From the NCBI GenBank assembly GCA_016933055.1, contig JAFGBS010000009.1, forward strand, positions 1 through 64,000: a DNA stretch of 64,000 bases, written 5' to 3'. This DNA comes from Promethearchaeota archaeon. Its GTDB lineage: Archaea; Asgardarchaeota; Lokiarchaeia; Sigyniarchaeales; Promethearchaeaceae. Positions 4,498-49,108 of this stretch are shown here, in pieces (within the stretch, counting starts at the first letter, position 1; the number at the start of each line of letters is the position of its first letter). The notes under the pieces were generated by a model that did no database searches, was not told where the DNA came from, and saw nothing but the letters and a program-made list of their open reading frames with translations. The position numbers were made by a program, and so were the translations under genes.

Positions 4498-5460
4498 ATG
4501 GGACGAGAAATATCGGGTACTTGGCATTGTATAAACTGTGGTTATACCGCTAAGGGTACAGAATGGAACACGCACATTATTAAGACATTTCAGAAATTTA
4601 TGAGGGAGGGAGCATTTTATCTCTGCCCACAATGTAAAACCGAAACTGAATTATATCGAGGCAATGGTAAAGGTCCCAAGAAAATTTTAGGAACTTGGCA
4701 TTGTGCAAACTGTGGATTTACAACCTCAGGTGAAGTTTGGAATACAAAAATGATTCGATCGTTTCAGAAATTTGGGGACGTGGGAACTATATATCGATGT
4801 CCACAGTGCAATGAAGATACCGAACTATATCGAGGTAAAGGTAGAGGAGGGGGAAAAAAAATTTACGGATATTGGCATTGCGTGAATTGTGGGTATACTG
4901 CAGATGGAAAAACATGGAATGGTTTAATTGTCAAAACATTTCGTAAATTTGGTCATAAAGGAGCAATTTACTCTTGTCCCGAATGTAATAAACATGTTGA
5001 GTTAGATAGGGGTTCAGGAACAGTATTAATGACAAAAAATCTTGCTGAAAAAGCTCCAGTGAAAATTAAAACCGTTTTCTTTAGTCATTCAACCCGAGAC
5101 TTCAAAACATATAACATTCCTGAAATCGCTGAAAGGTTGACAAAATATTTTGATATAAAAGATGCAATATTTTGGGAAGAAGATGCGGGTCATAATATCA
5201 TAGATTTTATGGATAAGACCTTAGGTGTGTGTAATGTGGCAGTTCTATTCTGTTCCGCTAATGCATTAGCATCGGAGAGTGTAAAAAAGGAATGGACTGC
5301 CATTGAGAGTTTAAATAAACCGATAATTCCGGTTTATACAGATCCCGAACATATCCCACCACTTCTTGCTCCACGGCAACGGATTTTATTTGATAGGACT
5401 AAATTTGATAAATTCATTGACGAACTACATGAATTGATTCAAAAAATAGTTGAAGAATAA
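4498..5460 (+). CDS. Three tandem zinc-ribbon modules + TIR domain
   Basis: Three ~60-aa repeats (G.WHCxNCGYT...W...I.KTF.KF...G..Y.CP.C....EL.RG), then TVFFSHSTRDF..IFWEEDAGHNIIDFMD..CNVAVLFCSANALASESVKKEWTAIESLNKPIIPVY. Confidence 0.85.
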   Translation: MGREISGTWHCINCGYTAKGTEWNTHIIKTFQKFMREGAFYLCPQCKTETELYRGNGKGPKKILGTWHCANCGFTTSGEVWNTKMIRSFQKFGDVGTIYRCPQCNEDTELYRGKGRGGGKKIYGYWHCVNCGYTADGKTWNGLIVKTFRKFGHKGAIYSCPECNKHVELDRGSGTVLMTKNLAEKAPVKIKTVFFSHSTRDFKTYNIPEIAERLTKYFDIKDAIFWEEDAGHNIIDFMDKTLGVCNVAVLFCSANALASESVKKEWTAIESLNKPIIPVYTDPEHIPPLLAPRQRILFDRTKFDKFIDELHELIQKIVEE

Positions 5461-6188
5461 TACTCATTCTTTAATTTTTTATATTAGTTACTTGCTGCAA
5501 ATAACCAGACTGCTTCTATCTAATAAATTGAATTCGTCGAATTTATAAAATACTTCTGTCTGGAACCACATATTCAATATACTTCATTACCCCGGATGAT
5601 AATATGGGTAACGTGGTGGTGTATATAATGAAAATTACGTTTAGTTTTCCTTGTGAGTAGTTCCATAGGTGCAGATTCATTAAAATTACTTGTTCACTTA
5701 AACTGAGCGTGCAATTTTCTATGGTCACAGGCATGTTTGAAGAAAATTCCCCTTAAGTAGCATCCTTCATCTTGATAATATTTCGCGATCCGTCTACTAT
5801 AAAACTTTTTCCTTAAAAGAAAAAGGGCTAGTGAAATTTGATAGATCTAAGTCAACAGGTTGGAAATTGGCATGATCTATAAAATTTGAGGATAAAATTA
5901 TTCAATTCCTTAGAAACGGGAATCTTTTGAAGAAAAAATATTCGAAATCAACATTATTCTGAATTTTCAAACCACTACCATTATCATAAATCGGAATAAG
6001 AATGGGAACGTGTGGATTCGTGCAGGTACCTATCATAAACAAATTTAAACTCCCGAAACGGGTATTTTGCGAATGATGATGGAGCACGTGATCCACGAAA
6101 AAATCATTCATACTACAGAAAGACACAAAAAAATAAATCCTTCAATTGAATCTACAAAACCTCTACAAGCAGTAACGTTCGAGTAATT

Positions 6189-6674
6189 TTAAGAATCTTG
6201 AGTTATTATTCCAATAAAAGTTGCTATACGCTGAAACCGTCGTGAAAGACCAAACCAAGCAAAACTCACAATAAATGAGATAATCCCAGACACCACTGAT
6301 GGTATGCTCAGTAAAAAAATACCTAATATCATCGTGGTTATCCCCCCAAGTAATACTATTGCTCCTACTACTTGATAAATATTAGATTTGTTTAGGTCAA
6401 AAGTTATATCTTCTATGTACTGTTTTCTTAGCTTCTCTTTATATTCAAGAGCAACTTGATTTTGCGAATCTTTTTCCAATACCTTATTAAAGCAAAGAGA
6501 AGCATTATATGGATGGTTTAAGAAAAAATGAAGTTTTCCTTTGTTTAACCAAGCATCAATATTATCTGGATTAATCTCAACAATTTGTTCATAACATTTA
6601 ATTGCTTTATACAATTTTCTATTTTCTTCAAATTCTTTTGCTTCATTCATCAGAGAAGATACATTTTCTGCCAT
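6189..6674 (-). CDS. TPR protein with two C-terminal TM helices
   Basis: KAIKCYEQIVEINPDNIDAWLNKGKLHFFLNHPYNASLCFNKVLEKD; hydrophobic VVGAIVLLGGITTMILGIFLL and VSGIISFIVSFAWFGL. Confidence 0.7.
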   Translation of the reverse strand: MAENVSSLMNEAKEFEENRKLYKAIKCYEQIVEINPDNIDAWLNKGKLHFFLNHPYNASLCFNKVLEKDSQNQVALEYKEKLRKQYIEDITFDLNKSNIYQVVGAIVLLGGITTMILGIFLLSIPSVVSGIISFIVSFAWFGLSRRFQRIATFIGIITQDS

Positions 6675-6796
6675 TATATACCACCTTTAAATCAGAGATC
6701 GACAATTGTAATATATATCTTTATTCCCTTTCTCCTTATTTTCTCAGATCAACATCTATTCCACCATTTCGGTTAACTAGGTAATCCCTTTAACGT

Positions 6797-7060
6797 AAAA
6801 CTATCATAAAACAACGTCAACCTTATAAAATTGAAAATTTACAATTTTCCCTATCTACCGATCATTCTGACGAGGAACTAATTCTCAGTGAAGCAGAACT
6901 GCACGCAGACGAAATTCTGTCTTTCCCTTCATCCACCTCCAACGAAATTTCAGAATTATTATCGAAATATACAAATTTTGTAACAAACACTCAACCCAGT
7001 TCCTTATCTTCCCTAAAAAATTTCGCCCAAGGAAGAAAAAGAGTTAAATTAACCAAGTAG
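6797..7060 (+). pseudogene. Start-less ORF remnant of unknown family
   Basis: Open frame TIIKQRQPYKIENLQFSLSTDHSDEELILSEAELHADEILSF...FAQGRKRVKLTK* with no good start codon. Confidence 0.3.
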
Positions 7061-7241
7061 TGGGTTGATAAGAATAAAATAAACCACCTTAGAATTCAAT
7101 TGAAGATAGGAAATTGGTGGAGTTGTCCTAATTGTTTGACTGAATATTTACTGTAGATAATCATAAAGAAACTCGAAATACCAGAAACCACATGTTTAAA
7201 TCAAAAACAATTATAAATTTGTACTTCCATCTTTTATCCGT

Positions 7242-7688
7242 TCATTGCATGGAATTTTTGAATGCTTTTGCACAATGTTTGCAACAAAAATTCATCTTCT
7301 TATCGTTGATCGTTTCAATATAAAAATTATCGAATAGCTTTACACCACAACTAGCACATACTTGAAGTTTTGATACAATTGCAGCTTCAATCAGATTTCC
7401 AAATCGTTGCAAAATCCTATCTACAAAATCCTCACCTAGTTGTGTTAATTGGAACCCTTTCGATCTTTTAGATTTAGAAGTTGGAATTGGAAGAATATAT
7501 CCTTCTGCTTGAAGATTAGCTAGAAAATCGTAGATATACGTAGGACTGGCTGTTTTCCCTAAATCCGACTTTAGGCGTTTAATAATATAATATCCTGTTA
7601 CTGTTTTTTTCGTTTTTAATAGGGTTAAAGTATAGAACTTAGTCAAATTTTGCACTTTTATATTTTCATCCATTGAAATTAACTCCAT
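7242..7688 (-). CDS. PadR-like winged-helix regulator with C-terminal TRASH-like metal-binding motif
   Basis: wHTH-like TLLKTKKTVTGYYIIKRLKSDLGKTASPTYIYDFLANLQAEGYI; C-terminal CASCGVKL...NFCCKHCAKAF. Confidence 0.65.
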   Translation of the reverse strand: MELISMDENIKVQNLTKFYTLTLLKTKKTVTGYYIIKRLKSDLGKTASPTYIYDFLANLQAEGYILPIPTSKSKRSKGFQLTQLGEDFVDRILQRFGNLIEAAIVSKLQVCASCGVKLFDNFYIETINDKKMNFCCKHCAKAFKNSMQ

Positions 7689-7836
7689 GATTAGGTTCTA
7701 GAGAACCCCCCCGAGGAAATTTATATGGAACTTAATTTATAAATATATATTTTATGATAGTAATTTTTAAATATATACTCTTATGTATATATCATAGTAA
7801 TCCACTCCAACTGGATTACAAAAAATTGATGAAAAA

Positions 7837-8127
7837 ATGGTACTTGATGAACACCCTCATATGATGGACTGGTGGTTTAATTTATTCGGTCCATATTCAT
7901 GGATTATAATGACATTTGGTTTTGTCGTTTTGCTCTCAATCAGCATCTTAATAGCATATTACGTTCATAAAGATGCAGTTAGAAGGGGAATTGCAAATTC
8001 TGAAGTCTGGTTATTGATTGTTCTAATCTTTAATGTAATTGGATTACTTATTTATTTGCTAGTTAGAGGAAATTACGCTCCAAATTATGAAGAGCAAAAT
8101 ATGACTCGAAATACTCCTTCAAGGTGA
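7837..8127 (+). CDS. Small two-TM membrane protein (HPHMMDWWF N-terminus)
   Basis: MVLDEHPHMMDWWFNLFGPYSWIIMTFGFVVLLSISILIAYYVHKDAVRRGIANSEVWLLIVLIFNVIGLLIYLLVRG. Confidence 0.65.
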   Translation: MVLDEHPHMMDWWFNLFGPYSWIIMTFGFVVLLSISILIAYYVHKDAVRRGIANSEVWLLIVLIFNVIGLLIYLLVRGNYAPNYEEQNMTRNTPSR

Positions 8128-8129
8128 TT

Positions 8130-8258
8130 ATGATGTTAGATGGCGGTATGGGACACATGATGGATTGGTTTTTTAATGATTCATTACCTTGGCTCTATAT
8201 TATTAGCGGATGTATGATTTTTATCATAATAATTGCTTTGATAATTTATGTTATATGA
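8130..8258 (+). CDS. 42-aa Met-rich membrane microprotein
   Basis: Manual translation MMLDGGMGHMMDWFFNDSLPWLYIISGCMIFIIIIALIIYVI*; N-terminus parallels the preceding ORF. Confidence 0.5.
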   Translation: MMLDGGMGHMMDWFFNDSLPWLYIISGCMIFIIIIALIIYVI

Positions 8259-8664
8259 TCCCCAAGAAATTTACGATACATACAGAATCAATCGGTTTCA
8301 ATTAGTGGATCTTTCTATACTCATCGGGAATGATTATACTCCCGGAATCAAAGGGATTGGTCCGAAGAAAGGTATCGAACTGCTTCACAAACATCGGAAT
8401 CTAGAACAGTTGCCTAATAAGATCCGAGAAAAAATTCCCCTTAATGTATCAGATATTGGGATAATTCGTTCTCTATTTTTAATACCGAATGTTCTAACCA
8501 CAATTCCAGAATTATCATTTACATATCCCAATCGGGGAGGCATTTTGGAACTAATGACAGTAGATCATTCTCTACACCGAGATCGAGTGAGTAAAGGAAT
8601 CAAGCGATTATTAAAAGCCCATTTTTTAATGAAAATTACTCATATTCAAGATAAGAGAAAATAA
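8248..8664 (+). pseudogene. FEN1/XPG-like C-terminal fragment (H3TH region; N-terminal nuclease half missing)
   Basis: QLVDLSILIGNDYTPGIKGIGPKKGIELLHKHRNLEQL..IIRSLFLIPNVLTTIPELSFTYP; in-frame stop just upstream of the ATG. Confidence 0.65.
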
Positions 8665-8753
8665 AAACCATAGAATGTAGAATTATGCTGAAAGATAATT
8701 AGGAACTTAATGAGTGGAAGTTCAGATGTACCTATTCGTTCCGAGATGTGGAC

Positions 8754-9854
8754 CTATCTCCAATGTTTCCCTTTTTTTAGTTTTTGCCCCATTAGAAATT
8801 TCTGGAGAGGTCCTTTCTTGTGGTTATAGATGTGCTCATATAATTGATCATAATCTTTCGGAACTGTAGATGGTTTTTCAACGGGTTTTAACGATAATGC
8901 ACCCTGATTACATACGGTAACACAAATGCCACAACCAATACACCGATTTAGATCAATTTTTGCTTTCTTACTTTCTCCATTGATAGTGATTGCATTAACT
9001 TGACAGCTCTTCTCACATAATCCGCATCCAACGCATTTCTCAGTGATTAATTCAGCATAAAAATCATGAGTCCAAAATTCCGCAGGATAAGGTAATTGTT
9101 TTTGTAAGCGTAAAATGCCACAACAACAACCACAACAACTACAAATGAATTCAGGTATTTGTCCACCTGATGGTTGTAGTACTAAACCTTCTTTCTGGTT
9201 AAGTGTTAACGTTTCTATTGCTTCTTGTTGAGTTAATTCTTTTCCAATCCCAGAAAATAATAACTGGCTTGCCATCATTCCCATTGCAAGACATACATAC
9301 TCTCGTGTAGTTTTTTTACAATTTTCTCCTAGTATTTTTTGTCTTTCCCGGCAAACGCATTTTAACAAAGCAAACGGTCCGTTATTTTCATTCACTAATT
9401 TCATTACTTGATTATATGTCGCAATTTTATGCTCTGGAGTGATAGATTCCTCAATAGGGATAGTTCGCATTTGTGATACTTTGGAAGATAGAAATTCTAA
9501 ACCATATGCGGATGTATTGTCATAATCATCATACACTTTTACATATTCAGGAGTAAGTTCGCCACCTTTAAGTTCATATAATCCGATCACAAGTGGAATT
9601 AAAGCATATTGCAGTTCTTCTTGGTCTTTTCTTTGATAGATACAACGTATTCTAGCCATTTCAACTAAAAAGTTTTCCAGTTCCTCTTTAGTATAGAGTT
9701 TTTTCGTTTTCTCATGGATTTGATTAATTGATTGAAATCGAAAACTCAAATGAAGAGCAATTTTCACATGATTCTCTTTGGGGAAATGTAATTGCAATAA
9801 TCGAACATCGGAATCATCCTTTGACTTTGGATATCCTACAGCTTGCTTATTCAA
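8754..9854 (-). CDS. 4Fe-4S ferredoxin-domain protein
   Basis: CVGCGLCEKSCQVNAI and CIGCGICVTVCNQGAL motifs; additional Cys clusters CVCRERQKILGENC and CSCCGCCCGIL. Confidence 0.85.
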   Translation of the reverse strand: MNKQAVGYPKSKDDSDVRLLQLHFPKENHVKIALHLSFRFQSINQIHEKTKKLYTKEELENFLVEMARIRCIYQRKDQEELQYALIPLVIGLYELKGGELTPEYVKVYDDYDNTSAYGLEFLSSKVSQMRTIPIEESITPEHKIATYNQVMKLVNENNGPFALLKCVCRERQKILGENCKKTTREYVCLAMGMMASQLLFSGIGKELTQQEAIETLTLNQKEGLVLQPSGGQIPEFICSCCGCCCGILRLQKQLPYPAEFWTHDFYAELITEKCVGCGLCEKSCQVNAITINGESKKAKIDLNRCIGCGICVTVCNQGALSLKPVEKPSTVPKDYDQLYEHIYNHKKGPLQKFLMGQKLKKGKHWR

Positions 9855-10749: not shown

Positions 10750-12969
10750 ATGCACTCTCTAACCTCTCTCCCTATTAATCCATTAGAATCCCCCTATCTC
10801 AAGAAAGAGAAGTTGGAGGTGCGTACATACCAAGTTAAGATTGCCAAAAAATGCATAGGGCAGAACTATTTAGTGTCGATTCTGACGGGTTTGGGGAAAA
10901 CTATCATTGCGATTCTAACTACTGCGGGAATCTTAACCAGATCTTTTCCCAACTCAAAAATCGTGATGGTTGCTCCCACTAGACCCCTAATTCTGCAACA
11001 TGCGAAAATTTTTCAGCAATTCCTCAGCGTAAAAATTAACGAGGAATCGGTCCTCACGGGATCTGTCAAACCCACGAAACGTATTCAAACTTTTCAACAA
11101 CGGCGAATCCTTTTCTATACACCTCAAACTTTACGCAACGATTTGAAAGAACAACGATACAATCTCAAGGATGTGAGTTTATTGATTATCGATGAAGCTC
11201 ATAAAGCGTCGGGAGACTATGCGTATACCGAGATCGCATCCATCTATCACGAAAGCAATCCCGATGGATCGATTTTAGCTTTGACGGCCAGTCCTGGTGC
11301 AGCCAAAGAACAAATCCATACATTGTGCAAAAATCTCTTCATACCCAATAATCACATCGAGTTACGGGATCGAGAAGATGAAGACGTGAAATCCTATGTA
11401 AAACAAATGGCGATAACGAAAATTGGTGTAGATATATCGGATTTTATGAAAGAAATCTTAACGGAATTGAATGAAATTCTCCGAGAACGCATGATCTTCT
11501 TAATGAACTGCGGCTATCTCATCGATTATAATGGGGATCCAATTGAGGACGTCGACCAATTAACTCGTTTTTCCCATCATCTCTCTCTTCAACTTAATAC
11601 TACCTTACTTTCTCGAAGTCAAGAACTCAAGGGTTCCGTTGTTTTACCCGATTCTCAAGATGAGTACCTCTATCAAGCCATATCTGTGAACGCAGAAGTC
11701 TTACGCATCTACCACATGATAAAAACCACCGAATCCCAAGGACTCAATGTACTGTTTGAATATCTCGAACAAATACAGAACAATATTCGAAAATCCACTG
11801 CATCGAAAGCGCTTAAGAATTTAGCATCCGATTCTCGCTTGTACTTACTCTATAAAACCATAAGAGATAAGGCAAACTCTGATTCCAGTGAAGAATTAAT
11901 CCATCCGAAACTGATTCAACTTAAAGATATTCTTACTGAAGAATTGAAGGAGAATCCCCAAGCTCGAATTTTACAGTTCGCGGAATTTCGGGACACCATT
12001 CAAGTAATCTATAATATCTTAAAGAAACTACCGAATCTTTATCCCGTTCGATTCGTGGGGCAAAATACCAAGTCTAAAAAAGATCGGGGTCTATCTCAAA
12101 AAGACCAAGTAGCAATATTGGACCATTTCCGACAAGGTAAATATAACGTATGAGTATCTACCAGTGTTGCCGAAGAAGGATTAGATATTGCGGAATGCGA
12201 TATGGTAATTTTTTATGATGCAGTGCCAACGGAAATACGATTAATTCAACGAAAAGGGAGGACTGCCCGACAGCGAGAGGGTAAGGTCGTTATTTTATAT
12301 AGTAAAGGCACTTCCGATGAGAAAAATTTGAAAAAATCACTCTCCCGACTACAACAGATGCACAATCATCTTAGACCGAAAACTAACGAAAAGAAAAAGG
12401 ATGCAATACAGATCGCTGAAGAGGAATCCCAACAACAAACCATTGAACGCTTTATGGATGCGGTTACACAACCCAAGCAAGATTTTCAAGAATTTCAAGC
12501 ATTTCCACAATTACGACTTGCTTCAACCCCCCATTCTTCAATTATTACTATTTACTCAGACGCAGGAAAAAAATACAAATTAACAGAACTATTCATTCAA
12601 AATTCTATCCCATTCTCTAAGGAAACCCCCACGATTCCATATAATTTTTTAACCCCAATCTTAGCGAATTCAGTAACACTTTTTCTTACCATCCTCTTAC
12701 CTTCGAAACTTCAGCAAGCTCGATTGCGCCAAGATGAATTATACAATGAACTCAACCTTCTTTCATCTAATTTTGAAGTGGTTATTTTAGGAATTGATTT
12801 TCTGAATTATACGGAATTAGTGGCAGGAGGTAAAGAAAACTTAATCCAACCGATTCGGACAATTTCACACGAATTCTCTAACATTGTGCTAATCCCAATA
12901 GATAAGATAAGCGATCTCCACATGGTATTACTTCCCATTCTAATCAATCAACGAAAAGAAGAATCATGA
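10750..12969 (+). pseudogene. Hef/FANCM-like DEAH helicase interrupted by one in-frame TGA (12151-12153)
   Basis: ILTGLGKTIIAIL, LLIIDEAHKASGDYAY, ALTASPGA in the first part. After TGA, same frame: VSTSVAEEGLDIAECDMVIFYDAVPTEIRLIQRKGRTAR. ORF-track pieces 10750-12153 and 12202-12969 share a frame. Confidence 0.8.
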
Positions 12970-13460
12970 CAGACTATATCGTATTCCAATGCACGAAATG
13001 TAACCAATATACCTATGCAAAAACCACGCAAAAAGGAAAAAAATGTCCGCGTTGTGGTAGGAATCATATTATTAATAAAGTGAACGGTGAATTAGTAAAT
13101 GCTCCAACGAAAGCAATGGAGTTAGTGAAATATAACCAGAATCAAATTAATTCCTCGAAATCATTCAATAGTACAAAGAAGCCGATTCCTATTCGTACTC
13201 CATCCTCTTCTGAACCATTGATTATCCCTATTATTGCACAAGATGCTCAACTCACTAAATTATTACAAAAAGTTATCGAATGGCAACGAAATGAGAACAT
13301 CTCTTTTAAAGAAGGGTTTCCCGAATACATCATTGAGTATATTGTCCAAGAGATCGAACTGGAATCCCGTAGTCGAACGATCTTGATCCGAAAGCTCCAT
13401 CAATTAAAGCAATTTACACGCTTAGAGGGAGGTAATATCTATATTGAAGAAACATATTAA
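12966..13460 (+). CDS. Zinc-ribbon protein in helicase/RadB cluster
   Basis: FQCTKCNQYTYAKTTQKGKKCPRCGR; 4-nt overlap with the helicase and overlap with the next ORF. Confidence 0.65.
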   Translation: MTDYIVFQCTKCNQYTYAKTTQKGKKCPRCGRNHIINKVNGELVNAPTKAMELVKYNQNQINSSKSFNSTKKPIPIRTPSSSEPLIIPIIAQDAQLTKLLQKVIEWQRNENISFKEGFPEYIIEYIVQEIELESRSRTILIRKLHQLKQFTRLEGGNIYIEETY

Positions 13461-14010
13461 TCCGGAAGGATTATGGGAACAGCATTATCACTCCAAAATT
13501 ATTCAAATCTATGGGAAAGCGGGATCAGGAAAATCGACCCTAGCGATGCATTTTGTAGGATATATTTTACAACAAGACATAAAAAATAAGGCATTCTGGG
13601 TGGATGCAGAGCGAAAAACCACTTCTAAACGATTGAATGATATCATAGGTAATAATGCACGTTCGATTTTGATTGCTCAACCACGAACCTATGATGAACA
13701 AGAAAAAGTATTCAAAAGCTTATCCACCATGGAATTTCCTATTACTGTGATTGTGATTGACACGATATCTCACCATTTTCGGGAGCTGGAAAAACGAGAT
13801 TCATGGACTTCGTATTCTGACTATCTCCAATTCTTTTATGAAATCCATATCCTCCCTCTACTTATTACTCAAAGATGGATGAATTGTCATCTCATTCTGG
13901 TGCATCAAATAACCTCCCTACCGGAGGAAGAGGATAAACCATATCTCTATAAGGTATTTGAAGAGATCCACTCAGATTGGATTCATCTCGAGAAGGGATT
14001 TGAATCTTAA
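13444..14010 (+). CDS. RecA/RadB-like ATPase
   Basis: Walker A IYGKAGSGKSTLA; Walker B-like ITVIVIDTISHHF; LILVHQ motif. Confidence 0.7.
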   Translation: MKKHINPEGLWEQHYHSKIIQIYGKAGSGKSTLAMHFVGYILQQDIKNKAFWVDAERKTTSKRLNDIIGNNARSILIAQPRTYDEQEKVFKSLSTMEFPITVIVIDTISHHFRELEKRDSWTSYSDYLQFFYEIHILPLLITQRWMNCHLILVHQITSLPEEEDKPYLYKVFEEIHSDWIHLEKGFES

Positions 14011-23836: not shown

Positions 23837-26800
23837 GTGGATACCTTTTTGAAGGAAATTACAGTTAGAAAAAAAGGGGTACTAAAAATGAGAAAATTAC
23901 AGAAAACCAAACTAATTTTACTTCTAATTTTTGTGCTTTTAATTCCCAATTTTTTGATAATACCGTCAAAAAATAACTCCCTTCTTTCTGATGAAAACAA
24001 TTTCATAATTTCTAATGATGGATTTGGTACATCTGACATGCTACCGGATTTTAACACAGCCGTAAAAGTGATCGGATCGGGTACTCAACATGATCCTACT
24101 GAATTTGACTATACCTATATACAATCTGACGATGGATTGGTGGATGATACAATGTTTTCTCCCGGATGGGGAGATACTCTTTTACGTGATGTAGCAGATT
24201 ATGGTGTAGTGGATTACACTGGGGCATTTGGAAGTACGGATGCAGGATTATGGCATTTTACGGATGCGTATCGAAATAATGATGGAAAATATCTCTATCT
24301 AGATAGTACATGGGGTAATGATTATCCCGGATGGATTTTCATGAAATGGGGGGCTTATGGAAACATTCCTACAGATGCCCACCCACACGTGAATCAAATT
24401 CGAATATCCTATGAAGTATGGGGAGACTCTGCCCTTGGTGTATTAGATCAATCAACTAATCTACGAATATACGCATTTGATGATTTAGGTAATTCTCAGT
24501 GGTATACAATCGCTTCCAATCCCCAACATCGAGTACATTATGAGGGTACATTCACTCTTACTTCTGGAACTGTATTTAATCGTGTACGAGCCGGAGGGTA
24601 TGTCAAACATCTTGCAGTATATATGTACAGTAATGAAGAACTCTGGACTCACACCTGGATAAATGTAGATTACGTTAAGATTTATTATGACTTTGACAAG
24701 CCAGATGTGAATTTTGCCTATTATTTTGATTTCAGCGGTTACGGTCTCACTACGGTTACACAATTTCAGTTAGAATTCGAAGTGACCGAATTAGTCCCAG
24801 GTACAAATGTGTATTTGTATGATTATACCACTTCTAGTTGGGACTTGGTAATGACTATCAATTCAGCGGGTACATATGCAAAGAATATAACCATTGACGC
24901 AGATCACTATTTTAGCGGAACAAAAGTATTTGTAATTGATTTCTCCCGATTTAATTATTATGATGGAAGACCCTACACTCAATATCATATTAAAATCGAT
25001 TATGTGACCGTAAAACTTCCCCCTCCTGATCCTCCTGCAAACTTACATTTAACTCAAGATATCCTCCAAATCCGACTTGATTGGGATCCTCCCAATTCCT
25101 ATGGAGCGTTAATCACCCATTACAATATATATCGTGGAACCATAGCGGGGGGGTCAAAAACTCTTATTGATACAACACCATTAACTGCTTACAATGATAC
25201 TACGGGTACTGTAGGAGTTGAATATTACTATATGGTAACAGCAGAAAGTGTAGAGGGGGAAAGTGAGAATTCAACTGAAGTGTCGGGAAAATCCTTTGAT
25301 CAACCCTTCGTTAGATGGACCAGTCCCGAAGACTATGCTTCGGTGGTTTTTGCCAAAGGGGAACCCGTCACCTTCTCTTTTGACTATGATTGGGGTAATC
25401 TTCAAGATGTTGAATTGATCATAGAAAAAGGTGTTTTTAGCGTCAATCATGGAAGCGTATGGAATAAAACTTCCATTGATATCTATGAAATCAACTATCT
25501 TGATGGAAGTGTAACGTGCACGTTAAATGGATATAACAACAGTATTTTGGTTTCCTCTGATGTTAGGGAATTCACTTTTGTCAAAATTGTGATTGAAGTA
25601 GGGGAACTCATAAATTCTAGCACAGAAATTCTGGGAAAACAGTTGTACATGATTCTTCATGATCCCCACGGGGATAATAGTTATTCGTTTTTTGAACAAT
25701 CAACTCAATTATCTTTAGGAGTTGGAATGGAACTTATTACTGCCGTAGGAGTAAACATCGAGGTGGGTGAGACTTTTGAACTTTTTGGAGTTGAAACAGG
25801 AGCATCCTTGGCATTAAGCTTTAAGACCACAATGGAGACGGGGTATGACTTCCGGTATGAAATTACCGATACCACGTCTTTGACATCAAGCCAGGTGACA
25901 GATAATCCCGATTATATAGGACCCGGATACGGAGATCGATATTGGGGTGAGAGTTGGATACTTAAATGGGTTTTAAATGCAACATATAGAGTATATTCGA
26001 ATGGAACTGATCGATATGAGGATCCGAAGTACTACTGGGGGATTATTCGGGACGTTGATACATTTTGTAGTCATGAACATGCACCTGAAGCATGGCGGGA
26101 GCAAAATCCTGTATATAATCACACACTCCCGGTACATTGGTTGGGGACCGAGCAAAGAAGTGGTGGAGCACCTTTCAACTTTGAGCATGAGGTGACATCT
26201 ACCGTTGCAAGGAAACAATCTTTAAGTATTGATGTCGGGACTGATTTCCAGACAAAATTCCCCGGAGTAGAAACATCCTTTACATTTGAATTCAGTATGA
26301 AAAGTTATGTAGAAGCAGGGGCATCTAGCACGTTTACAGTGGGATATTCACTTTATGATGATGATCCAACTGATTTCATTGTTCATGGAGTAGGAATTGA
26401 TAAAAGATTCGGGACGTATATTTTTAATTCCTCCGAATTCATGTGTGAGACCTCAGGTCCCTATGAATATCACACGTTCGATTACCTCCCTCCCGAAATT
26501 ATGCTTCCCGAAATTGAATTAGATCCAGATGGAGATGGTATTAGTCCGAGTCCTGACGATTCACCTATAGTAAATGTAAGAATCTTTGAAGAGGATGAAT
26601 TACAAGAGGTTATTATCAAATATTCTATTAACAATGGCACCGATTGGAGTATAGCGTACATGTCGGAACTCCCCGGAGACCCTGGTACATGGGAAGGGAT
26701 GATTCCCTCTCAAGCTGCGAACACCACCGTTCTTTGGTTTATACAAGCATGGGATATGCAAGGTCATAATGCTACACGATATAACTCATATCTTGAACCG

Positions 26801-26932
26801 TTTAGTTACGTAGTAATTGCTAAACCTGAACCAGATCGAAAGATCCCCGGATATCCACTGCAATTTCTTACTCTAGCAGCGGTTGCAGGTTCCATATGGC
26901 TGATTCATTCTTACCGAAAGCTCAGAAAATAA
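23837..26932 (+). CDS. Large secreted surface protein (fibronectin-III-like region) with IPGY C-terminal anchor
   Basis: Signal-like KTKLILLLIFVLLIPNFLI (probable start ATG near 23888); FN3-like PPDPPANLHLTQDILQIRLDWDPP..YYYMVTAESVEGES; C-term KIPGYPLQFLTLAAVAGSIWLIHSYRKLRK. Confidence 0.8.
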   Translation: MDTFLKEITVRKKGVLKMRKLQKTKLILLLIFVLLIPNFLIIPSKNNSLLSDENNFIISNDGFGTSDMLPDFNTAVKVIGSGTQHDPTEFDYTYIQSDDGLVDDTMFSPGWGDTLLRDVADYGVVDYTGAFGSTDAGLWHFTDAYRNNDGKYLYLDSTWGNDYPGWIFMKWGAYGNIPTDAHPHVNQIRISYEVWGDSALGVLDQSTNLRIYAFDDLGNSQWYTIASNPQHRVHYEGTFTLTSGTVFNRVRAGGYVKHLAVYMYSNEELWTHTWINVDYVKIYYDFDKPDVNFAYYFDFSGYGLTTVTQFQLEFEVTELVPGTNVYLYDYTTSSWDLVMTINSAGTYAKNITIDADHYFSGTKVFVIDFSRFNYYDGRPYTQYHIKIDYVTVKLPPPDPPANLHLTQDILQIRLDWDPPNSYGALITHYNIYRGTIAGGSKTLIDTTPLTAYNDTTGTVGVEYYYMVTAESVEGESENSTEVSGKSFDQPFVRWTSPEDYASVVFAKGEPVTFSFDYDWGNLQDVELIIEKGVFSVNHGSVWNKTSIDIYEINYLDGSVTCTLNGYNNSILVSSDVREFTFVKIVIEVGELINSSTEILGKQLYMILHDPHGDNSYSFFEQSTQLSLGVGMELITAVGVNIEVGETFELFGVETGASLALSFKTTMETGYDFRYEITDTTSLTSSQVTDNPDYIGPGYGDRYWGESWILKWVLNATYRVYSNGTDRYEDPKYYWGIIRDVDTFCSHEHAPEAWREQNPVYNHTLPVHWLGTEQRSGGAPFNFEHEVTSTVARKQSLSIDVGTDFQTKFPGVETSFTFEFSMKSYVEAGASSTFTVGYSLYDDDPTDFIVHGVGIDKRFGTYIFNSSEFMCETSGPYEYHTFDYLPPEIMLPEIELDPDGDGISPSPDDSPIVNVRIFEEDELQEVIIKYSINNGTDWSIAYMSELPGDPGTWEGMIPSQAANTTVLWFIQAWDMQGHNATRYNSYLEPFSYVVIAKPEPDRKIPGYPLQFLTLAAVAGSIWLIHSYRKLRK

Positions 26933-28036: not shown

Positions 28037-30043
28037 GTGGATATGGTGAAGACACTATGGAGAAAGATCACGTTCGGAGTAGTCTGTTTGTTCATGATTT
28101 TACCGCTTTATCTTGCATTACCAGATAAAGATGGCGTATTAATTACAACAACAAATAAACTACAAAGACCTATTGCAGCAGGTTCCGATGATTTTATTTC
28201 GGTGTGGGATACCTCATTGACAAGCTCGGGATCAAGCAACTCAAACCAAGTGAAATTACCGCTACAATCAAGCGGAAAGTATAACTTTTTGGTGGAATGG
28301 GGGGATGGGAAAAGTGATACCATTACCTCATGGAATCAAGCAGAAGTAAATCATACGTATACATTTGAGGGAGTTTACACGATTAATATTACAGGCAGCA
28401 TTGAAGGTTGGCGTTTCAATTACGGAGGAGATAGACTAAAACTTCTTGAAATCCAACAGTGGGGTTGTTTACAATTAGGGAATGATGGATCGTTTTTTTA
28501 CGGATGCTCAAATTTGAATCTAACGGCTAAAGATAATTTGGATTTGACTGGAACGACCTCTTTGTATAAGGCCTTTCGGGATTGTAATAACTTGGGCAGT
28601 AATGGCAATTTAAAAGGGTGGGATGTATCCCACATAACGAATATGGAATCTATGTTCCATGGTGCTTCTTCATTCAATCAAGATATCGGAGCGTGGAACG
28701 TATCCAGTGTAACGAATATGGAATTTATGTTCCATGGTGCTTCTTTATTCAATCAGGATATTGGAGCATGGGATGTATCCAGTGTAACGAATATGGTCGC
28801 TATGTTCTATGGTGCTTCTTCATTCAATCAGGATATCGGAGGTTGGGATGTATCCAGTGTAACGGATATGGATTATATATTCTGCGGGGCATCATCGTTC
28901 AATCAGGATATCGGAGGTTGGGATGTGTCCAGTGTAACGGAAATGGAATCGATGTTCGAACGTGCATCTTCATTCAATCAGGATATCGGAGGATGGGATG
29001 TATCCGCTGTGACGGTTATGTATTCTATGTTCGAAGGCGCATCTTCATTTAATCAGGATATCGGAAGTTGGGATGTATCCAGTGTGTATTTTATGCGAGA
29101 AATGTTTTTTGGGGCATCATCGTTCAATCAAGATCTCGGAAGTTGGGATGTATCCAGTGTAACGGATATGGTCGCTATGTTCGAAGGGGTGGAACTTTCT
29201 ACGGAAAATTATGATAGTTTGTTACTGGGTTGGTCCCAACTCTCTTTGCAATCCAATGTAGATTTTCATGGAGGTGCCTCCTACTATAGCATTGCTGCTG
29301 CCACAGCTCGTAAATCCATTATAGATACGTATAGTTGGACAATAACTGATGGGGGACCCGAACCTGAAACCTTGACTATCAGCACTCCTCTTGCAACTAG
29401 TTCGTGGGAAACTTCTTCTACGCAAACCATCACATGGGATTCTACGGGGGTTGTTGCTTCAGTTAACTTGGAATTACATCGTAATGAGATTTATGTACTA
29501 TCCATAGTTCAAGGAACCGTAAATGATGGGAATTTTGCATGGGAACTTCCCTCGGAATTAGAAGATTCAATACTCTATCAAATCAAAATCGTAGATGCGT
29601 CGAATGAGACGGTGTATGATCTTAGCGAATATTTCGAGATTTTTAATCCCACTATAACCGTTACCGCTCCTACCGAACTCTCTTCTTGGGAAACCGGTAC
29701 CTCCCAAACGATTACATGGACATCCACCGGGACAATTACCTCAATGAACATCGAATTATACAAAAATGGAGTGCTCGTACAGACGATTATTACAGAAACT
29801 GATAATGATGGAAGTTACTCATGGACTTTACCCGCGAATTTAGAAGATTCCCAGTATCAAATCAAAATCGTGGATGCATCGGATGAAACGGTGTATGATT
29901 TCAGTGATGGATTCGAAATACTTACGGACCAAAAAAGAATTCCAGGATATAATATATTCATAGTTCTGGCGACACTTGCTAGTGCCATCATTATGCTATT
30001 TCGAAAATCATATAATAGCAGGCACAAGTCGTTAGTCGTCTAA
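28037..30043 (+). CDS. BspA/DUF285-repeat surface protein with IPGY C-terminal anchor
   Basis: Repeats ([25 protein letters not shown]) then two SSWETxxxQTITWxSTG domains; C-term [25 protein letters not shown]. Confidence 0.85.
28616..29215 (+). repeat. Eight 75-bp tandem coding repeats (DUF285)
   Basis: The TGGGATGTATCCAGTGTAACG motif recurs at 28616, 28691, 28766, 28841, 28916, 28991, 29066 and 29141, exactly 75 bp apart. Confidence 0.9.
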
Positions 30044-36664: not shown

Positions 36665-37459
36665 ATGATTTATTACCCATGTCTTAGAATACAACATATG
36701 GAACGTCTAAATAAGGTCTTCATCTCTTATTCCTACAAGGATGAGATTGCGAGGAGTGAACTTATTTCGAAACTGAATGGTAGGGGCATTAATCCCTATG
36801 TTTTTCCTCCCATTACAGTATCTCCCAATAGATTGAATAGTAATGATCTGATTGAATCCATCCTTCACCATGACAGTATGATTTATATTAAAGGAGAATA
36901 TTCCGATAAATCGTTTTGGGTAGTATTTGAACGAGATTATGCTATGAGAGCACATAAAGAAGTATATTCCTTTGATCCGAGTACTATGAAAATCGAAAAA
37001 TCTCGGCTACCACTACTCGACCTTCCAATTTTTCCCTGTTACATCCATGAAGATTACAAGAAAATTGAGGCAGTATTTGAATTTATGAGAAGGAGGTACA
37101 TCGACTTGGAGACTTTGCACGAGAAATTTTCACCTAAATTGCAGATCGGAGATAGTTTAGCGAATTTTGTTTACAATATACTTCGTAGTGGAAATTACAT
37201 CATATTTTTCTTAACTTCTCATATTCGATCTGAAATGGTAAGTGAAATGAGTAATGTAATGGAATCTCGTCCCGAAAGGATTCTGTTTGCCTTGTTAGAT
37301 AAAGATGCCATTAAAACAATACCAAGCAATCTTCCACCACAAAAAATACTAACGATACCATTATATGGAGACAATATCAGGTCCGAAAAAACACGCTGGC
37401 ATGACCTTATTGTGATGATATATTGGTTGATTCTCCGAAATGCTTACGAATTAGTGTAA
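36665..37459 (+). CDS. TIR-like protein, possibly two TIR-like units
   Basis: KVFISYSYKDEIARSELISKLNGRGINPYVFP..IESILHHDSMIYI..SFWVVFERDYAMRA; second unit IIFFLTSHIRSEMVSEMSNVMESRPERILFALLD. Confidence 0.6.
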   Translation: MIYYPCLRIQHMERLNKVFISYSYKDEIARSELISKLNGRGINPYVFPPITVSPNRLNSNDLIESILHHDSMIYIKGEYSDKSFWVVFERDYAMRAHKEVYSFDPSTMKIEKSRLPLLDLPIFPCYIHEDYKKIEAVFEFMRRRYIDLETLHEKFSPKLQIGDSLANFVYNILRSGNYIIFFLTSHIRSEMVSEMSNVMESRPERILFALLDKDAIKTIPSNLPPQKILTIPLYGDNIRSEKTRWHDLIVMIYWLILRNAYELV

Positions 37460-43995: not shown

Positions 43996-45690
43996 TTAAA
44001 AATCAAATCTGTCGACGGGCTGGATATTCATATCAGAGCCTATTTCTTCGTATGCGATTACAGGAAGTTTAGGTAACAAAGATGCAATTAATGTTCGAAC
44101 TTTGTGACGGATATCTCCATTCGTTATTATCGTTGCTTTTACTGCATTTATTGGATCGCCGATTTTATTGATAAAGGCTTTTAGTAATTTTAAACGCATA
44201 TTCTCGTCAATGACTGCAGTTTCATTAATCGCTTTTTCCAGTTTATCATTTAATAAGTAACAGACAAGGCTTTTTCGATCCATTCCCCTTCCATAGGTCC
44301 AAGATATGAATAGTTGTTGAGATATTCGTAACTCCTTGACGATTTCTGAGATGTAGATATTAGGATTACTCGAGTAGAATTCCTTTATGTTTCGTAATTC
44401 AATGATCTTTTCCAACAGTGCGGGTAAATTCCGAATAGAAAGCTCCTCTTCCAGAAAAGATCTTAATATACACGTTAGTTCGGCCATGGAGTACTGTTGT
44501 TCCACTGCTTTAATTAGAAAGGGATATTGTTGTTTCAACTTATTAAGGAGAATATTAGTAGTCTCTATAGAGAGAAACATACAGGCATTCCCTCGAATCA
44601 AGGCAGATAATGCCAAAAATAGATATTGAGTTGTATTCCAAGTAACTAATCCTGCCCTCTCGCAAAATCCCACGGATTCGGACTCCGTAATAATTGCTTG
44701 TTCGGAATAATTCGCCGGATTAAATGCTTTTCTCCCTTGAACTCCAATTAGCTTAAGACGATCTACTGTATCATTCACAAGGTATTCATTTTCTCCCATC
44801 ATTTTGAGGGGAAGGAAACGTAAATCATTTATTTTAAACCTACACTCCCATTCTCGCAATCGATAATCCAAAGAAATCTCGGGTTTGGGAAGAAATAATC
44901 CCAATTCATAAAATAAACCTTCTAATGTCATGGCAATTCCATCATTGAATGTATCGATTTTAGTTACAGGATGCTTGTTTGAGGTTGCTTGTTCTCTTTT
45001 CTCTTCTTCCTCCTCATATTTTCGGTACATTTCGTCATTCAGAAGAATCTCAATATTGATATTATCCATTGAAAACGCATTTTCATGGTAGAATAAAGGT
45101 ATTGGGTTTTCTACATCGTCATATTTTGAAATTTCTTCAATATATCTGTTAATTGATATACCATGGCGAATACAAGATTCTAAAGCTTCATGAAACTGCG
45201 ACTTCGAATATTGTTTTAGAATATCTCCATGAAGGCTTGACCAAGATTCCAAGATTAAAGCGGAAAGAGATTCAGTCAATAAAATTTGACGATTTTCAAG
45301 GATTCCCTTAGATATTTTGATAGCGAGTTCATTTCCCTCGGTAATTTTCTCGTGTGGTTCGTCTAATCGATAAATAACGCGCTTATGGTTTACATAGGTA
45401 ATATAGGGAACTCCCAACATCTCGATTTTTTCATCTGCAACTGTAACATCCAAGGAAATTTCGAATGGTAATGCCAAATCTCTGACAATTCCTTCGATGA
45501 ATAAATGTAATTTCTGGTGAAATTCTTGATGTTCTTCCTTCCCGAGGGTAGCAAAATTCTTCAATGAGGAATCTAATTTCACTTCTATCAGAATACTATC
45601 CGATTTTTGCTGTTCCGTTGGGGGAGATGATTTGATCTCTCTCTCGGAGGGGATTTTATCCAAATTCGTTTTCTCCTCAGACAATTTCAA
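43996..45690 (-). CDS. FlhA/SctV (FHIPEP) cytoplasmic-domain-like soluble protein
   Basis: LIRGNACMFLSIETTNILLNKLKQQYPFLIKAVEQQYSMAELTCILRSFLEEELSIRNLPALLEKIIEL and IITNGDIRHKVRTLIASLLPKLPVIAYEEIGSDMNIQPV follow the FlhA C-domain pattern; no TM segments. Confidence 0.65.
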   Translation of the reverse strand: MKLSEEKTNLDKIPSEREIKSSPPTEQQKSDSILIEVKLDSSLKNFATLGKEEHQEFHQKLHLFIEGIVRDLALPFEISLDVTVADEKIEMLGVPYITYVNHKRVIYRLDEPHEKITEGNELAIKISKGILENRQILLTESLSALILESWSSLHGDILKQYSKSQFHEALESCIRHGISINRYIEEISKYDDVENPIPLFYHENAFSMDNINIEILLNDEMYRKYEEEEEKREQATSNKHPVTKIDTFNDGIAMTLEGLFYELGLFLPKPEISLDYRLREWECRFKINDLRFLPLKMMGENEYLVNDTVDRLKLIGVQGRKAFNPANYSEQAIITESESVGFCERAGLVTWNTTQYLFLALSALIRGNACMFLSIETTNILLNKLKQQYPFLIKAVEQQYSMAELTCILRSFLEEELSIRNLPALLEKIIELRNIKEFYSSNPNIYISEIVKELRISQQLFISWTYGRGMDRKSLVCYLLNDKLEKAINETAVIDENMRLKLLKAFINKIGDPINAVKATIITNGDIRHKVRTLIASLLPKLPVIAYEEIGSDMNIQPVDRFDF

Positions 45691-47683
45691 TCTCTCCTTT
45701 TATTCGATTTAGTAAAAATCGCTGCAATTCATTGCGAGACAAGCAAGGGATTTTAAATTCTATATTAATTAATTCTTGTGTAAATTCGCGGATTGAGGGA
45801 TTTTTCACCGCAATAGCCATATCCTTATATTGAGTAGAATATTCACGTATTTTGGACAGAATATTCACCACAGCGCTTGGATCCATATCCAAAATTTTTT
45901 GATATCCCGCATCCTTTATCGAATTCTTGATCTTCTCTTCGATTTTATCACCCAATTGGAATATTTGAAAATTTTCGTCATTGCCTGGTAGAACATTGCG
46001 AATACTCGGTAATAAGCGCATGTTCTGGTAAGTTTCTGTAAGATCTTTATTCTCAGATAAGCAAGTATTAAATTCTTGAACTATTGCCTCAAGTGAAGTG
46101 ATCGGAATTTTGTCTTTCACCAATTTTCGTAGTATTTGCGTAAATGCACTCAGATTCTTTTCTTCTATCTCAAATGTTGCTACTCCATAAAGGATATTCT
46201 TAACGAAATCATGCCCAACAAAATCTCCCAGATGTTCTTCAATAATGGGTCGAATTGCATTCATTAAAGATTTGATGATCATTGTTTCGTTCTTATTCAC
46301 TGAACCTTTTCCTACTTGAACTTCATCTACTAAGACCGTAAAGTCCTGCGGTCCTAGATTGTTGTTATCTCGGAATCGGATTCCCGGTATTTTCACTCCA
46401 TAAGTATTAAGTATTCTTTTCCGGATTTCTTCGACTTCTTCTAATGTTTCTTTACGGAGGTCATTAGAAGAAGGGACGATTATCGCATTCATTATATCAC
46501 TACCAATTTCTACTGCAAGGGGATTGACTCTTGGAATTTTATCCGCAATCTCTTCCCCATATTTTGAAAGACTCTTCATCCGATCATAATTCTCCTTATA
46601 GATTTTTTTATCGGGATTCAGTTTGTAGGCTTCTTTGAAGTACTGTAAAGCTTGATCAAAGGATATTCTCTGTGTCTGCTTTTTGGTTACCTCTTTTGCC
46701 GAATCCGTTACTTTTAAGTCTTCTTTCTTTTCCCATCCTTGGGCTGATTTGAAGTAAAATTCTGCCACTTCTTCACTATAATTGTCTTTTTCCTCAGGAG
46801 TCATTTTATTCAGTTCTTGGATAGCACGAGAATGTTTTTTCTGTTCAACAAACACCTTTGCAACTTCTAGTTTATGGTTGATATCGTCGTAAGCGGGTAC
46901 CAGATCATATATATCTTCAGTATAAGCATAATGTCCCGTTATGAGTACAAGTTCCTTTGGATCAATACTGGGGTCTTCTTTTAATACATCTTTCCACCCC
47001 TCTAATTTTCCCACTTCTTGAAAATCTTCGGTAGAAAGATCTAACATCATTTGTCCCTTGACCTCCTTTTGGCGTAAAAAACCGATTTGTACCCTGAAAC
47101 AATACGTACCATGCCCGTGAATCGTTATTGGGAAAATATATTTTCTTCCTTCACCTTGTTTGTAGCGATATTCTAAAATATCCCTACTTCGATATTGCCA
47201 GTGGCTTTGATTACAATTCCCATCATATCTTACTATCTTCTCTCCCTCTTTTTCACTGGAAAACGGAGTTAATAGAGCCTTTCCTTCTAAGGATGGATTA
47301 TAGGTGACATTGGGTAGAGTTTTTTTATTATATTCTAATTTTTGGCGGAAAAAGATGGTGTAACTTTCCTCTTTCTCGAACAACAAGGTGGGTCTTTCAG
47401 TTTCGCTTTTGGGACGGTATTGCCATAAATTGATAATAAACCATGACGGTATTGTCATAATTTTACCGGCATTTTGTAAGTCAATTGTTAAAAATAAAAT
47501 TCGATCATAGCCTGTTTTTTTTATTTCTGTTGAGAGTTTAATCTCCATGGTAGGAATCCATTTTCCAAATAATTCCTCTTCCTCTTTTTGTGCTAATTTT
47601 GCAAGGCGTAGGGATGCTAGAGCAATGGCAAGACTGGCAGTTGCTACTAGAATTTCGGAAATTGTTGCAATATCCACTGCCAT
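45677..47683 (-). CDS. Membrane-anchored TPR-like protein with FlhA cytoplasmic-domain-like C-terminus
   Basis: N-terminal TM EILVATASLAIALASLRLA; TPR-like middle; NPLAVEIGSDIMNAII...EEVEEIRKRILNTYGVKIPGIRFRDNNNLGPQDFTVLVDEVQVGKGSV parallels FlhA 'RIRxIRxxxAxExGxxxPxxxIRDNxxLxPxxYxIxxxGxxxxxG'. Confidence 0.65.
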   Translation of the reverse strand: MAVDIATISEILVATASLAIALASLRLAKLAQKEEEELFGKWIPTMEIKLSTEIKKTGYDRILFLTIDLQNAGKIMTIPSWFIINLWQYRPKSETERPTLLFEKEESYTIFFRQKLEYNKKTLPNVTYNPSLEGKALLTPFSSEKEGEKIVRYDGNCNQSHWQYRSRDILEYRYKQGEGRKYIFPITIHGHGTYCFRVQIGFLRQKEVKGQMMLDLSTEDFQEVGKLEGWKDVLKEDPSIDPKELVLITGHYAYTEDIYDLVPAYDDINHKLEVAKVFVEQKKHSRAIQELNKMTPEEKDNYSEEVAEFYFKSAQGWEKKEDLKVTDSAKEVTKKQTQRISFDQALQYFKEAYKLNPDKKIYKENYDRMKSLSKYGEEIADKIPRVNPLAVEIGSDIMNAIIVPSSNDLRKETLEEVEEIRKRILNTYGVKIPGIRFRDNNNLGPQDFTVLVDEVQVGKGSVNKNETMIIKSLMNAIRPIIEEHLGDFVGHDFVKNILYGVATFEIEEKNLSAFTQILRKLVKDKIPITSLEAIVQEFNTCLSENKDLTETYQNMRLLPSIRNVLPGNDENFQIFQLGDKIEEKIKNSIKDAGYQKILDMDPSAVVNILSKIREYSTQYKDMAIAVKNPSIREFTQELINIEFKIPCLSRNELQRFLLNRIKGEIEIV

Positions 47684-48162
47684 TATTTTTTAACCTCCTT
47701 TTTTTGTTGTGCTGCAAGCAGTAACTTCGCACGGTCTAACCACGGACTCGGAGTATTTAAATTTGGATTGGTGAGTATTTCTTCTAAATTCTTTATGGCA
47801 TCTTTTTCTTTTTCGCTCATAATCAGGCATTCAGAACGGTACACATGACTTACGATGTCTCTCGAATCATTCGCCAACGCCATATCATACCCGGCAATTG
47901 CTTCCTCGTAATTCTCCATTTGTTGATTAACTGCACCGTAAGCCCTCCAATAATGATTAGTATATGGAGCAATAGTAGTGAGAAGAATGAAGATATCTTT
48001 GGCTGCCTTGTAGTTACCGATAGTGAATTGGTTGTATCCTAGTGCATAGAGGTCCTCGCACTCTGCATCACTGGGGTTGTTTTTTTGTTTTAGACGGATT
48101 AAACCATCATAATATCCATGAATTAGATATTCAAGATATTTACCCGTCGTTTTTTCTATCAT
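47683..48162 (-). CDS. TPR protein (first gene of FlhA-like operon)
   Basis: DLYALGYNQFTIGNYKAAKDIFILLTTIAPYTNHYWRAYGAVNQQMENYEEAIAGYDMALANDSRD. Confidence 0.75.
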   Translation of the reverse strand: MIEKTTGKYLEYLIHGYYDGLIRLKQKNNPSDAECEDLYALGYNQFTIGNYKAAKDIFILLTTIAPYTNHYWRAYGAVNQQMENYEEAIAGYDMALANDSRDIVSHVYRSECLIMSEKEKDAIKNLEEILTNPNLNTPSPWLDRAKLLLAAQQKKEVKK

Positions 48163-48277: not shown

Positions 48278-49108
48278 TTAGATAGTTACACTGACCATTA
48301 AACCCCGATGATCGGATGAAGAACGGTTCCATACTAAATCTGCGGTGTGTTTTACCACGGTACATAAATGGTTAATCCATATGTAGTCAATTCGTAAGAA
48401 AGGGAAACATACATGCCAGGTTTTTCCCAGAAACGGGGTTTTACCGGATGCAATCCAAGCATCTTGCAAGTGGGAAAACAAGCTCCAATAGCTAATATCT
48501 ATTAAATAATTAGGAGTATTGAAGTCTCCCAGAAGTATTAGCGGTTTTGAATAATCAATAATATCCAATATTGATTGAACATGCTGGAATCTCCGGACAT
48601 ACCTTAATGGAATGTCTAAATGTGAGTTTATCACATTAATTAGTGTTCCATTGATATCTAGTTCTGCGATAAGGATTCCACGTGACAATACCTCATCCTC
48701 CCTAATCGTAATGAAATTTGTGCTCGTGATGTTATATCGAGATAATATAATTAATCCATAATCCCAGACGTTAAGTTCTGAGGGGATCGCAACATACTCA
48801 TAGGAGAGTGCTGAAGCATATTCAGCTATGCTGAGAGCGCGCTCATTCGCGATAATATTCGTTACCTCTTGTAAGGCTACAATGTCTGCATCTACTTGGG
48901 TAATAAGGTCCATAGTTGCATCATTCGACCCAAACTGCACATTATATGTAAAAATTTTCACTGAATTAGTCATATCTCTCGTTGTGGAAACGGACAGATT
49001 AAAAAAGACAGGGATCAAAATGTGGATTATATAGATTGATAAAAGAATGGTCAATGTATATGCCGCTTTTTTCCATTTTTCAGCTATAAATTTCATGAGA
49101 CAACTCAA
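48278..49108 (-). CDS. Membrane-anchored endonuclease/exonuclease/phosphatase (EEP) family protein
   Basis: FTYNVQFGSNDATMDLITQVDADIVALQEV..INSHLDIP..ILLGDFNTP..RIDYIWIN..SSDHRGLMVSV; N-terminal TM. Confidence 0.85.
   Translation of the reverse strand: MSCLMKFIAEKWKKAAYTLTILLSIYIIHILIPVFFNLSVSTTRDMTNSVKIFTYNVQFGSNDATMDLITQVDADIVALQEVTNIIANERALSIAEYASALSYEYVAIPSELNVWDYGLIILSRYNITSTNFITIREDEVLSRGILIAELDINGTLINVINSHLDIPLRYVRRFQHVQSILDIIDYSKPLILLGDFNTPNYLIDISYWSLFSHLQDAWIASGKTPFLGKTWHVCFPFLRIDYIWINHLCTVVKHTADLVWNRSSSDHRGLMVSVTI

Follow-up and report, generated by a model that had tools for sequence, protein, structure and literature searches.

In bacterial type III secretion systems and flagella, the export-gate protein SctV/FlhA normally couples its cytoplasmic domain to an N-terminal gate of about 8 transmembrane (TM) helices. 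The cytoplasmic domains form nonameric rings, and tetratricopeptide repeat (TPR) chaperones dock on them; to our knowledge, both this ring and the SycD-type chaperones are regarded as exclusive to bacterial type III secretion and flagella. The docking of the YscX:YscY complex on YscV has been described, with the TPR chaperone YscY contacting subdomains SD2 and SD4 (PMC9163089). Here, we analyzed a three-gene operon in a 64,000-nucleotide stretch of a Promethearchaeota archaeon genome (assembly GCA_016933055.1, contig JAFGBS010000009.1; the window). The operon encodes the SctV/FlhA cytoplasmic domain twice, in the distinct paralogues A and B, together with a SycD/LcrH-like chaperone, T, in a genome that does not contain FliP. 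Most likely, it specifies an export-gate platform derived from type III secretion that has no channel and that, with its chaperone, serves as a scaffold.

Like SctV/FlhA, the module keeps SD1 to SD4 in order (complete in B and in the A proteins of relatives, with SD2 missing from the window A), has one membrane-anchored paralogue, and has an adjoining chaperone gene. It differs in its lack of a multi-TM gate half and of FliP, in having two paralogues, in the fusion of these to TPRs or to a putative second, degenerate FlhA_C-like unit, and in its archaeal host. The features of the operon are collected in Table 1.

Table 1. Features of the operon and the adjacent upstream gene, with positions in the window
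Feature	Positions	Strand	Basis
T, 159-amino-acid (aa) TPR protein, SycD/LcrH-like (type III secretion class II chaperone family)	47683..48162	-	TIGR02552 LcrH_SycD, E=1e-24
A, 668 aa; N-terminal TM, middle with no domain found, one TPR, FHIPEP cytoplasmic domain without SD2	45677..47683	-	PF00771; Foldseek
A, single predicted TM helix, residues 5-23	47615..47671	-	Hydropathy peak 1.99 over 19 residues
A, remaining TPR-like repeat, residues 342-358	46610..46660	-	Weak TPR matches (E 0.004-0.05); position of the last TPR of relatives
A, FlhA_C/SctV_C-like domain, about residues 385-667 (SD1, SD3, SD4)	45683..46531	-	Pfam, PDB, Foldseek, alignment
A, SD2 deletion point, about 46-54 residues missing relative to relatives and SctV	46276..46282	-	Alignment gap
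B, 564-aa soluble FHIPEP paralogue	43996..45690	-	PF00771; PDB YscV_C, E=1.7e-19
B, N-half, about residues 30-205, candidate degenerate FlhA_C-like unit (SD1-SD3 without SD2)	45076..45603	-	hhalign
B, complete FlhA_C/SctV_C-like domain, residues 248-562 (SD1-SD4)	44005..44949	-	Pfam, PDB, alignment
Membrane-anchored endonuclease/exonuclease/phosphatase (EEP)-family gene, adjacent upstream of T	48278..49108	-	PF03372, E=3.3e-20; 115-nt gap

Homology and anatomy of the three proteins

A and B are almost certainly homologous to the SctV/FlhA cytoplasmic domain, based on profile, sequence, and structural matches. The Pfam profile FHIPEP (PF00771) matched A with an E value of 2.6e-25 and B with an E value of 5.7e-27 (residues 248 to 554), in both cases limited to the cytoplasmic part of the profile (positions of about 309 to 656). 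Of the NCBIfam models for SctV and FlhA (TIGR01399 and TIGR01398), SctV was the best match for B (1.5e-31) and FlhA the best for A (1.3e-20). The significant PDB sequence matches of both proteins were all SctV/FlhA cytoplasmic domains (LcrD/YscV, CdsV, FlhA, InvA, and EscV). When the AlphaFold model of A was searched with Foldseek, the top matches were likewise all SctV/FlhA (E=4.7e-9, TM-score of 0.6 by target length). The B model also matched SctV/FlhA structures (E=1.2e-14) with a low TM-score, as expected given that the alignment behind the model had five sequences; PDB entry 7qij was the top structural match for both models. Thus, the FHIPEP-like motifs quoted by the initial annotation are present, far beyond chance, and all four lines of searching (Pfam, NCBIfam, PDB sequences, and Foldseek) lead to the domain it had named. 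The outcome that it had set as refuting this assignment, either a lack of profile and structural matches to FlhA_C or a confident match to an unrelated fold, did not occur.

We assigned SD1 to SD4 by the subdomain limits of YscV (PMC9163089). The multi-TM gate half is absent from both A and B: A proteins have no or one plausible TM segment, compared with 5 to 8 peaks in FlhA/SctV controls. A lone N-terminal TM helix in the window A had been annotated and is borne out by hydropathy; the A proteins of other lineages have none, and the single peak in the methanogen A falls within the FHIPEP domain. B was annotated as lacking a TM, which is likely from our analysis, as its sole marginal hydrophobic stretch (residues 357 to 375) lies inside the SD1-SD3 region. 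SD2, missing from the window A, is kept in the A proteins of relatives. Neither a domain nor, among 60 related genomes, a relative was found for the first 265 aa of A.

The N-half of B had no significant family match, and its profile was aligned to the FHIPEP domain by hhalign with a score of 37.1 (P=1.7e-4), colinear from start to start and skipping SD2. As controls, 150 column-shuffled profiles scored no higher than 24.2 and the reversed profile scored 19.1; against FlhA/SctV alone the register was identical, at a score of just 18.7. Judging from this alignment, B probably carries two FlhA_C units in tandem, a degenerate one followed by a complete one.

T was annotated as a chaperone-like TPR partner, which can be narrowed to SycD/LcrH-like based on its TIGR02552 (LcrH_SycD) score and its end-to-end alignment with AcrH, PcrH, and SycD. 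T scored 86.8 bits and its relatives 102.5 and 102.7 bits, all below the curated cut-off of 104.8, compared with 33 to 45 bits for other, unrelated TPR proteins of these genomes, which preferred other TPR models. A profile of the T family matched AcrH, PcrH, SycD, and IpgC across the greater part of these proteins, in a search in which an engineered TPR scores high too. Profile positions 14 to 156 of 158 aligned to AcrH, with similar extents for PcrH and SycD, so that by sequence T has the three-TPR chaperone fold from end to end. T-like genes with family-level scores were confined to module loci in the 13 genomes searched. T thus resembles SycD/LcrH/PcrH/IpgC (and SctY/YscY) in matching the LcrH_SycD model by a wide margin over every other TPR family, and differs from SycD/LcrH/PcrH/IpgC in its score under the cut-off and in its surroundings: no translocator-like gene was seen beside the module at the window, Heimdallarchaeota, and methanogen loci that we read, nor were needle substrate genes seen nearby. 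The layout of T and A has a counterpart in Nitratidesulfovibrio, where a SctY-type TPR gene and sctV share 4 nt.

FliP is the most conserved gate protein. FliP (PF00813) was absent from the window genome and from five other genomes with the module, and the same search was positive in Escherichia coli, Bacillus subtilis, Caulobacter, and Thermotoga; no separate searches were made for FliQ, FliR, FlhB, or the ATPase. The annotated absence of an export apparatus therefore holds for FliP in these six genomes.

We confirmed the coordinates and reading frames of the three overlapping minus-strand genes, which run in the order T, A, B. T and A overlap by 1 nt (TAATG), as annotated, with the purine-rich, ribosome-binding-like sequence AAGGAGGT upstream. 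A 14-nt overlap had been annotated between A and B, and it is present when B starts at its first TTG (45690), preceded by the purine-rich, ribosome-binding-like sequence AAGGAGAG. Spacing from GGAGAG favors the second in-frame TTG (45684) as the start, in which case A and B would overlap by 8 nt. This arrangement makes coupled translation of T, A, and B plausible. Contamination or mis-assembly was rejected as a source of the operon, based on the length of the contig (818,988 bases), the 36-contig assembly (3.76 Mb), and a module GC content of 36.2% that matches the 35.7% of the window.

Relatives of the module and their link to CHAT proteases

Relatives of the module are few and scattered. FHIPEP was found in 4 of 232 Asgard genomes, and B-type genes in 1 of 397 Halobacteriota and 2 of 399 Chloroflexota genomes; the matches behind these counts were sorted by hand. 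Two weak Asgard matches (in G174 and G066) were not counted, as their sequences read as an FtsY-like signal recognition particle GTPase and an MMPL-like permease. The Chloroflexota matches were mostly multi-TM FlhA proteins of about 700 aa, and G474 is a flagellar locus; these were excluded. The only other searched genome from the genus of the window organism (G001, 76% complete) did not yield the module. With one genome searched per species, a Methanomicrobiales archaeon and an Anaerolineae bacterium were found. No viral contig matched B; two human-gut "Bacteriophage sp." records that match A and B (MT835847.1 and MT835480.1) are ordinary flagellar operons with FlhB-FlhA, probably mislabeled.

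The Heimdallarchaeota locus and that of the Methanomicrobiales archaeon (the methanogen) share a five-gene operon consisting, in order, of a protein that we call X (351 to 355 aa), a CHAT protease, a TPR-rich A (898 to 931 aa), B (543 to 544 aa), and T (155 to 161 aa). Thus, the T-A-B gene set recurs in other archaea, and the annotated three-gene unit, intact in the window, has fuller versions that add a CHAT protease and X. The description of the operon as archaeal stands insofar as it has archaeal relatives; it is not Asgard specific, and Chloroflexota also have A and B, once together with X and CHAT. That Chloroflexota locus (L051) keeps X, CHAT, A, and B in the order of the five-gene operon. 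L051 (6170 to 11851) appears to be decaying, with CHAT frameshifted and split over frames and A truncated. At the Anaerolineae locus (L017), A and B are followed by a 663-aa HExxH protein and a metallo-beta-lactamase (MBL)-fold protein (6092 to 9579); the latter resembles the MBL-fold proteins of Lamassu/AVAST defense systems. The methanogen island (L016) has a GC content of 43% in surroundings of 62 to 64%, a sign of recent transfer. A calpain-like (Peptidase_C2) protein (12795 to 13952) follows the five-gene module there.

In the phylogenetic tree, the A, B, and FlhA sequences grouped into a single clade each, fully or almost fully supported. B leaned toward SctV (82/76), with its archaeal and bacterial sequences intermingled. 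When this tree, in fact unrooted, was rooted at the midpoint, A branched outside FlhA, SctV, and B.

Outside the module, protein X recurs next to CHAT or caspase genes. An island on a Pseudanabaena plasmid (L081, 2763 to 17439) carries MoxR, a SAV_2336/caspase protein, X, a caspase, a STAND-like ATPase, and WD40, and its X is 46% identical to the methanogen X. X adjoins a CHAT gene in Rhizobium and, by reading of the sequence, a STAND-like ATPase and a CHAT-like open reading frame (ORF) in Chloroflexota. In the Heimdallarchaeota and methanogen genomes, the only CHAT gene is that of the operon itself. A full-length match to X was found in 1 of the 232 Asgard genomes (G075).

MoxR-vWA-centered systems have been described as conflict systems (Kaur et al. 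2020, PMC7159879); type III secretion, FHIPEP, and FlhA go unmentioned in that paper. The full operons resemble CHAT/caspase conflict systems (MoxR-vWA or STAND linked) in carrying CHAT and X, and X occurs elsewhere with MoxR/SAV_2336/caspase and STAND-like genes. They differ in that the module has no MoxR-vWA pair or STAND ATPase, its scaffold is FHIPEP plus a SycD-like protein, and the window copy lacks CHAT. With Craspase (Cas7-11 with the TPR-CHAT protein Csx29), the full operons share TPR and CHAT parts within one regulatory assembly; here the two parts are on separate proteins, and no Cas7-11 gene was seen next to the module.

Genes around the operon in the window

The EEP-family gene upstream of T is probably not part of the module. 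It was dropped, even though the Heimdallarchaeota locus also has an upstream EEP gene, because genomes related to that of the window organism have only longer proteins, of about 700 aa and with another architecture. Elsewhere in the window are three genes for TIR-domain proteins (1381 to 2130 on the minus strand, 4498 to 5460 and 36665 to 37459 on the plus strand), one with zinc-ribbon-like parts and the closest about 6.5 kb from the operon. The window also holds, on the plus strand, a DUF285-rich, surface-like protein (28037 to 30043) and a 1031-aa ORF with a weak match to a phage tail-fiber profile (23837 to 26932).

Possible function of the module

By comparison with SctV/FlhA, contacts via SD1 and SD3 would join A and B in a ring or arc, either homo- or hetero-oligomeric. 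B keeps the SD2-SD4 cleft and would thus be the T-docking paralogue, with T seated in the cleft as YscY is on YscV and holding a client peptide in its TPR groove. The window A, with a membrane anchor and without SD2, may be the structural and anchoring paralogue. The client would not be passed to a channel; instead, the platform would use its occupancy to place an effector or let it go. For the full operons, the output would be the CHAT protease with X, and for the window organism a partner close to the membrane, to which the N-terminal TM of A would bring the platform.

We consider it very probable that the module acts as a scaffold without export. A role in conflict (defense or cell fate) is likely from the recurrence of X beside CHAT, caspase, MoxR, and STAND genes and from the patchy, horizontally moved island, and for the conflict and protease reading as a whole the balance tilts slightly in favor. 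Tentatively, and with somewhat less than even confidence, we propose a new prokaryotic conflict system, in which a channel-free docking ring and its chaperone would sense clients and control a caspase-like protease, shared horizontally between archaea and bacteria, with a membrane-tethered Asgard form that has a new output.

Several observations weigh against the scaffold reading with its conflict and protease role. The single-chain models have low overall confidence, with mean predicted local distance difference test (pLDDT) values of 54 and 63 for A and B; the A model reaches about 80 to 90 across residues 470 to 668, except at 591 to 595. T was not found at two Chloroflexota loci, nor with a Wukongarchaeum fragment whose contig starts inside B. 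X has no significant match in Pfam, NCBIfam, PADLOC, or PDB and no known fold. Among the PADLOC models of known defense systems, no strong match was obtained for A, B, T, or X (A had a marginal generic TPR match, E=0.004), and weak SAVED_CHAT and MBL matches occurred only for neighbors in relatives. Finally, a search of the window genome found neither X nor any CHAT protein, so the protease-control part of this reading rests on the relatives.

That same absence of CHAT, X, or another obvious effector, along with the membrane anchor, would suit a scaffold for an ordinary cellular task unrelated to conflict, such as membrane organization, trafficking, or protein quality control, with CHAT as a signaling protease. 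Housekeeping predicts wide conservation, however, which is at odds with 4 of 232 Asgard genomes and with the lack of the module in G001, and X travels with CHAT/caspase and STAND/MoxR-type genes. We therefore regard an ordinary task as rather unlikely.

The module could also be a stranded, decaying remnant of type III secretion, acquired by horizontal transfer and now functionless. Each of the three proteins has a type III counterpart, the window A has lost SD2 and most TPRs, the distribution is patchy, and the L051 copy is partly broken. Yet the window ORFs are intact and overlapping, with ribosome-binding-like sites, and one and the same gene set foreign to type III secretion, including a TPR-A fusion and a B N-half of its own, is kept in Heimdallarchaeota, the methanogen, and Chloroflexota. 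A and B are old, separate clades, which places the loss of the gate before the spread of the module and further counts against decay; this explanation is, in our estimate, quite improbable.

Alternatively, the platform and its SycD-like chaperone could still serve export, delivering clients to an unrecognized membrane translocon. Client delivery in type III secretion is the task of precisely this half of the machine, a chaperone plus a docking domain, and the window A has a TM helix; however, the six module genomes lack FliP, the A proteins of other lineages lack a TM, and no conserved membrane partner lies beside the module, making export very unlikely. It is scarcely credible that the archaeal A, B, and T represent an ancestral scaffold from which the cytoplasmic domain of the type III gate later arose, as, despite the presence of the module in two archaeal phyla and the position of A in the midpoint-rooted tree, the tree is in fact unrooted, B groups with SctV and not with A, the module is rare and moves horizontally, and T resembles injectisome chaperones, which are established as derived relative to flagella.

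We found no description of a system like the proposed scaffold in the open-access literature, with subscription papers and most preprints outside the scope of the search. The families of its parts are known, and their channel-less combination in archaea appears to be new. The adjoining CHAT proteases in archaeal and Chloroflexota relatives suggest that part of a bacterial injection apparatus has been reused as a scaffold for protease control, and with X they suggest a new architecture of protease-based immunity. The occurrence of both the ring domain and the chaperone in archaea without a channel suggests that the half of the type III machine that recognizes clients can exist alone, and the module offers a minimal system in which to test how chaperone-client complexes are read by the ring.

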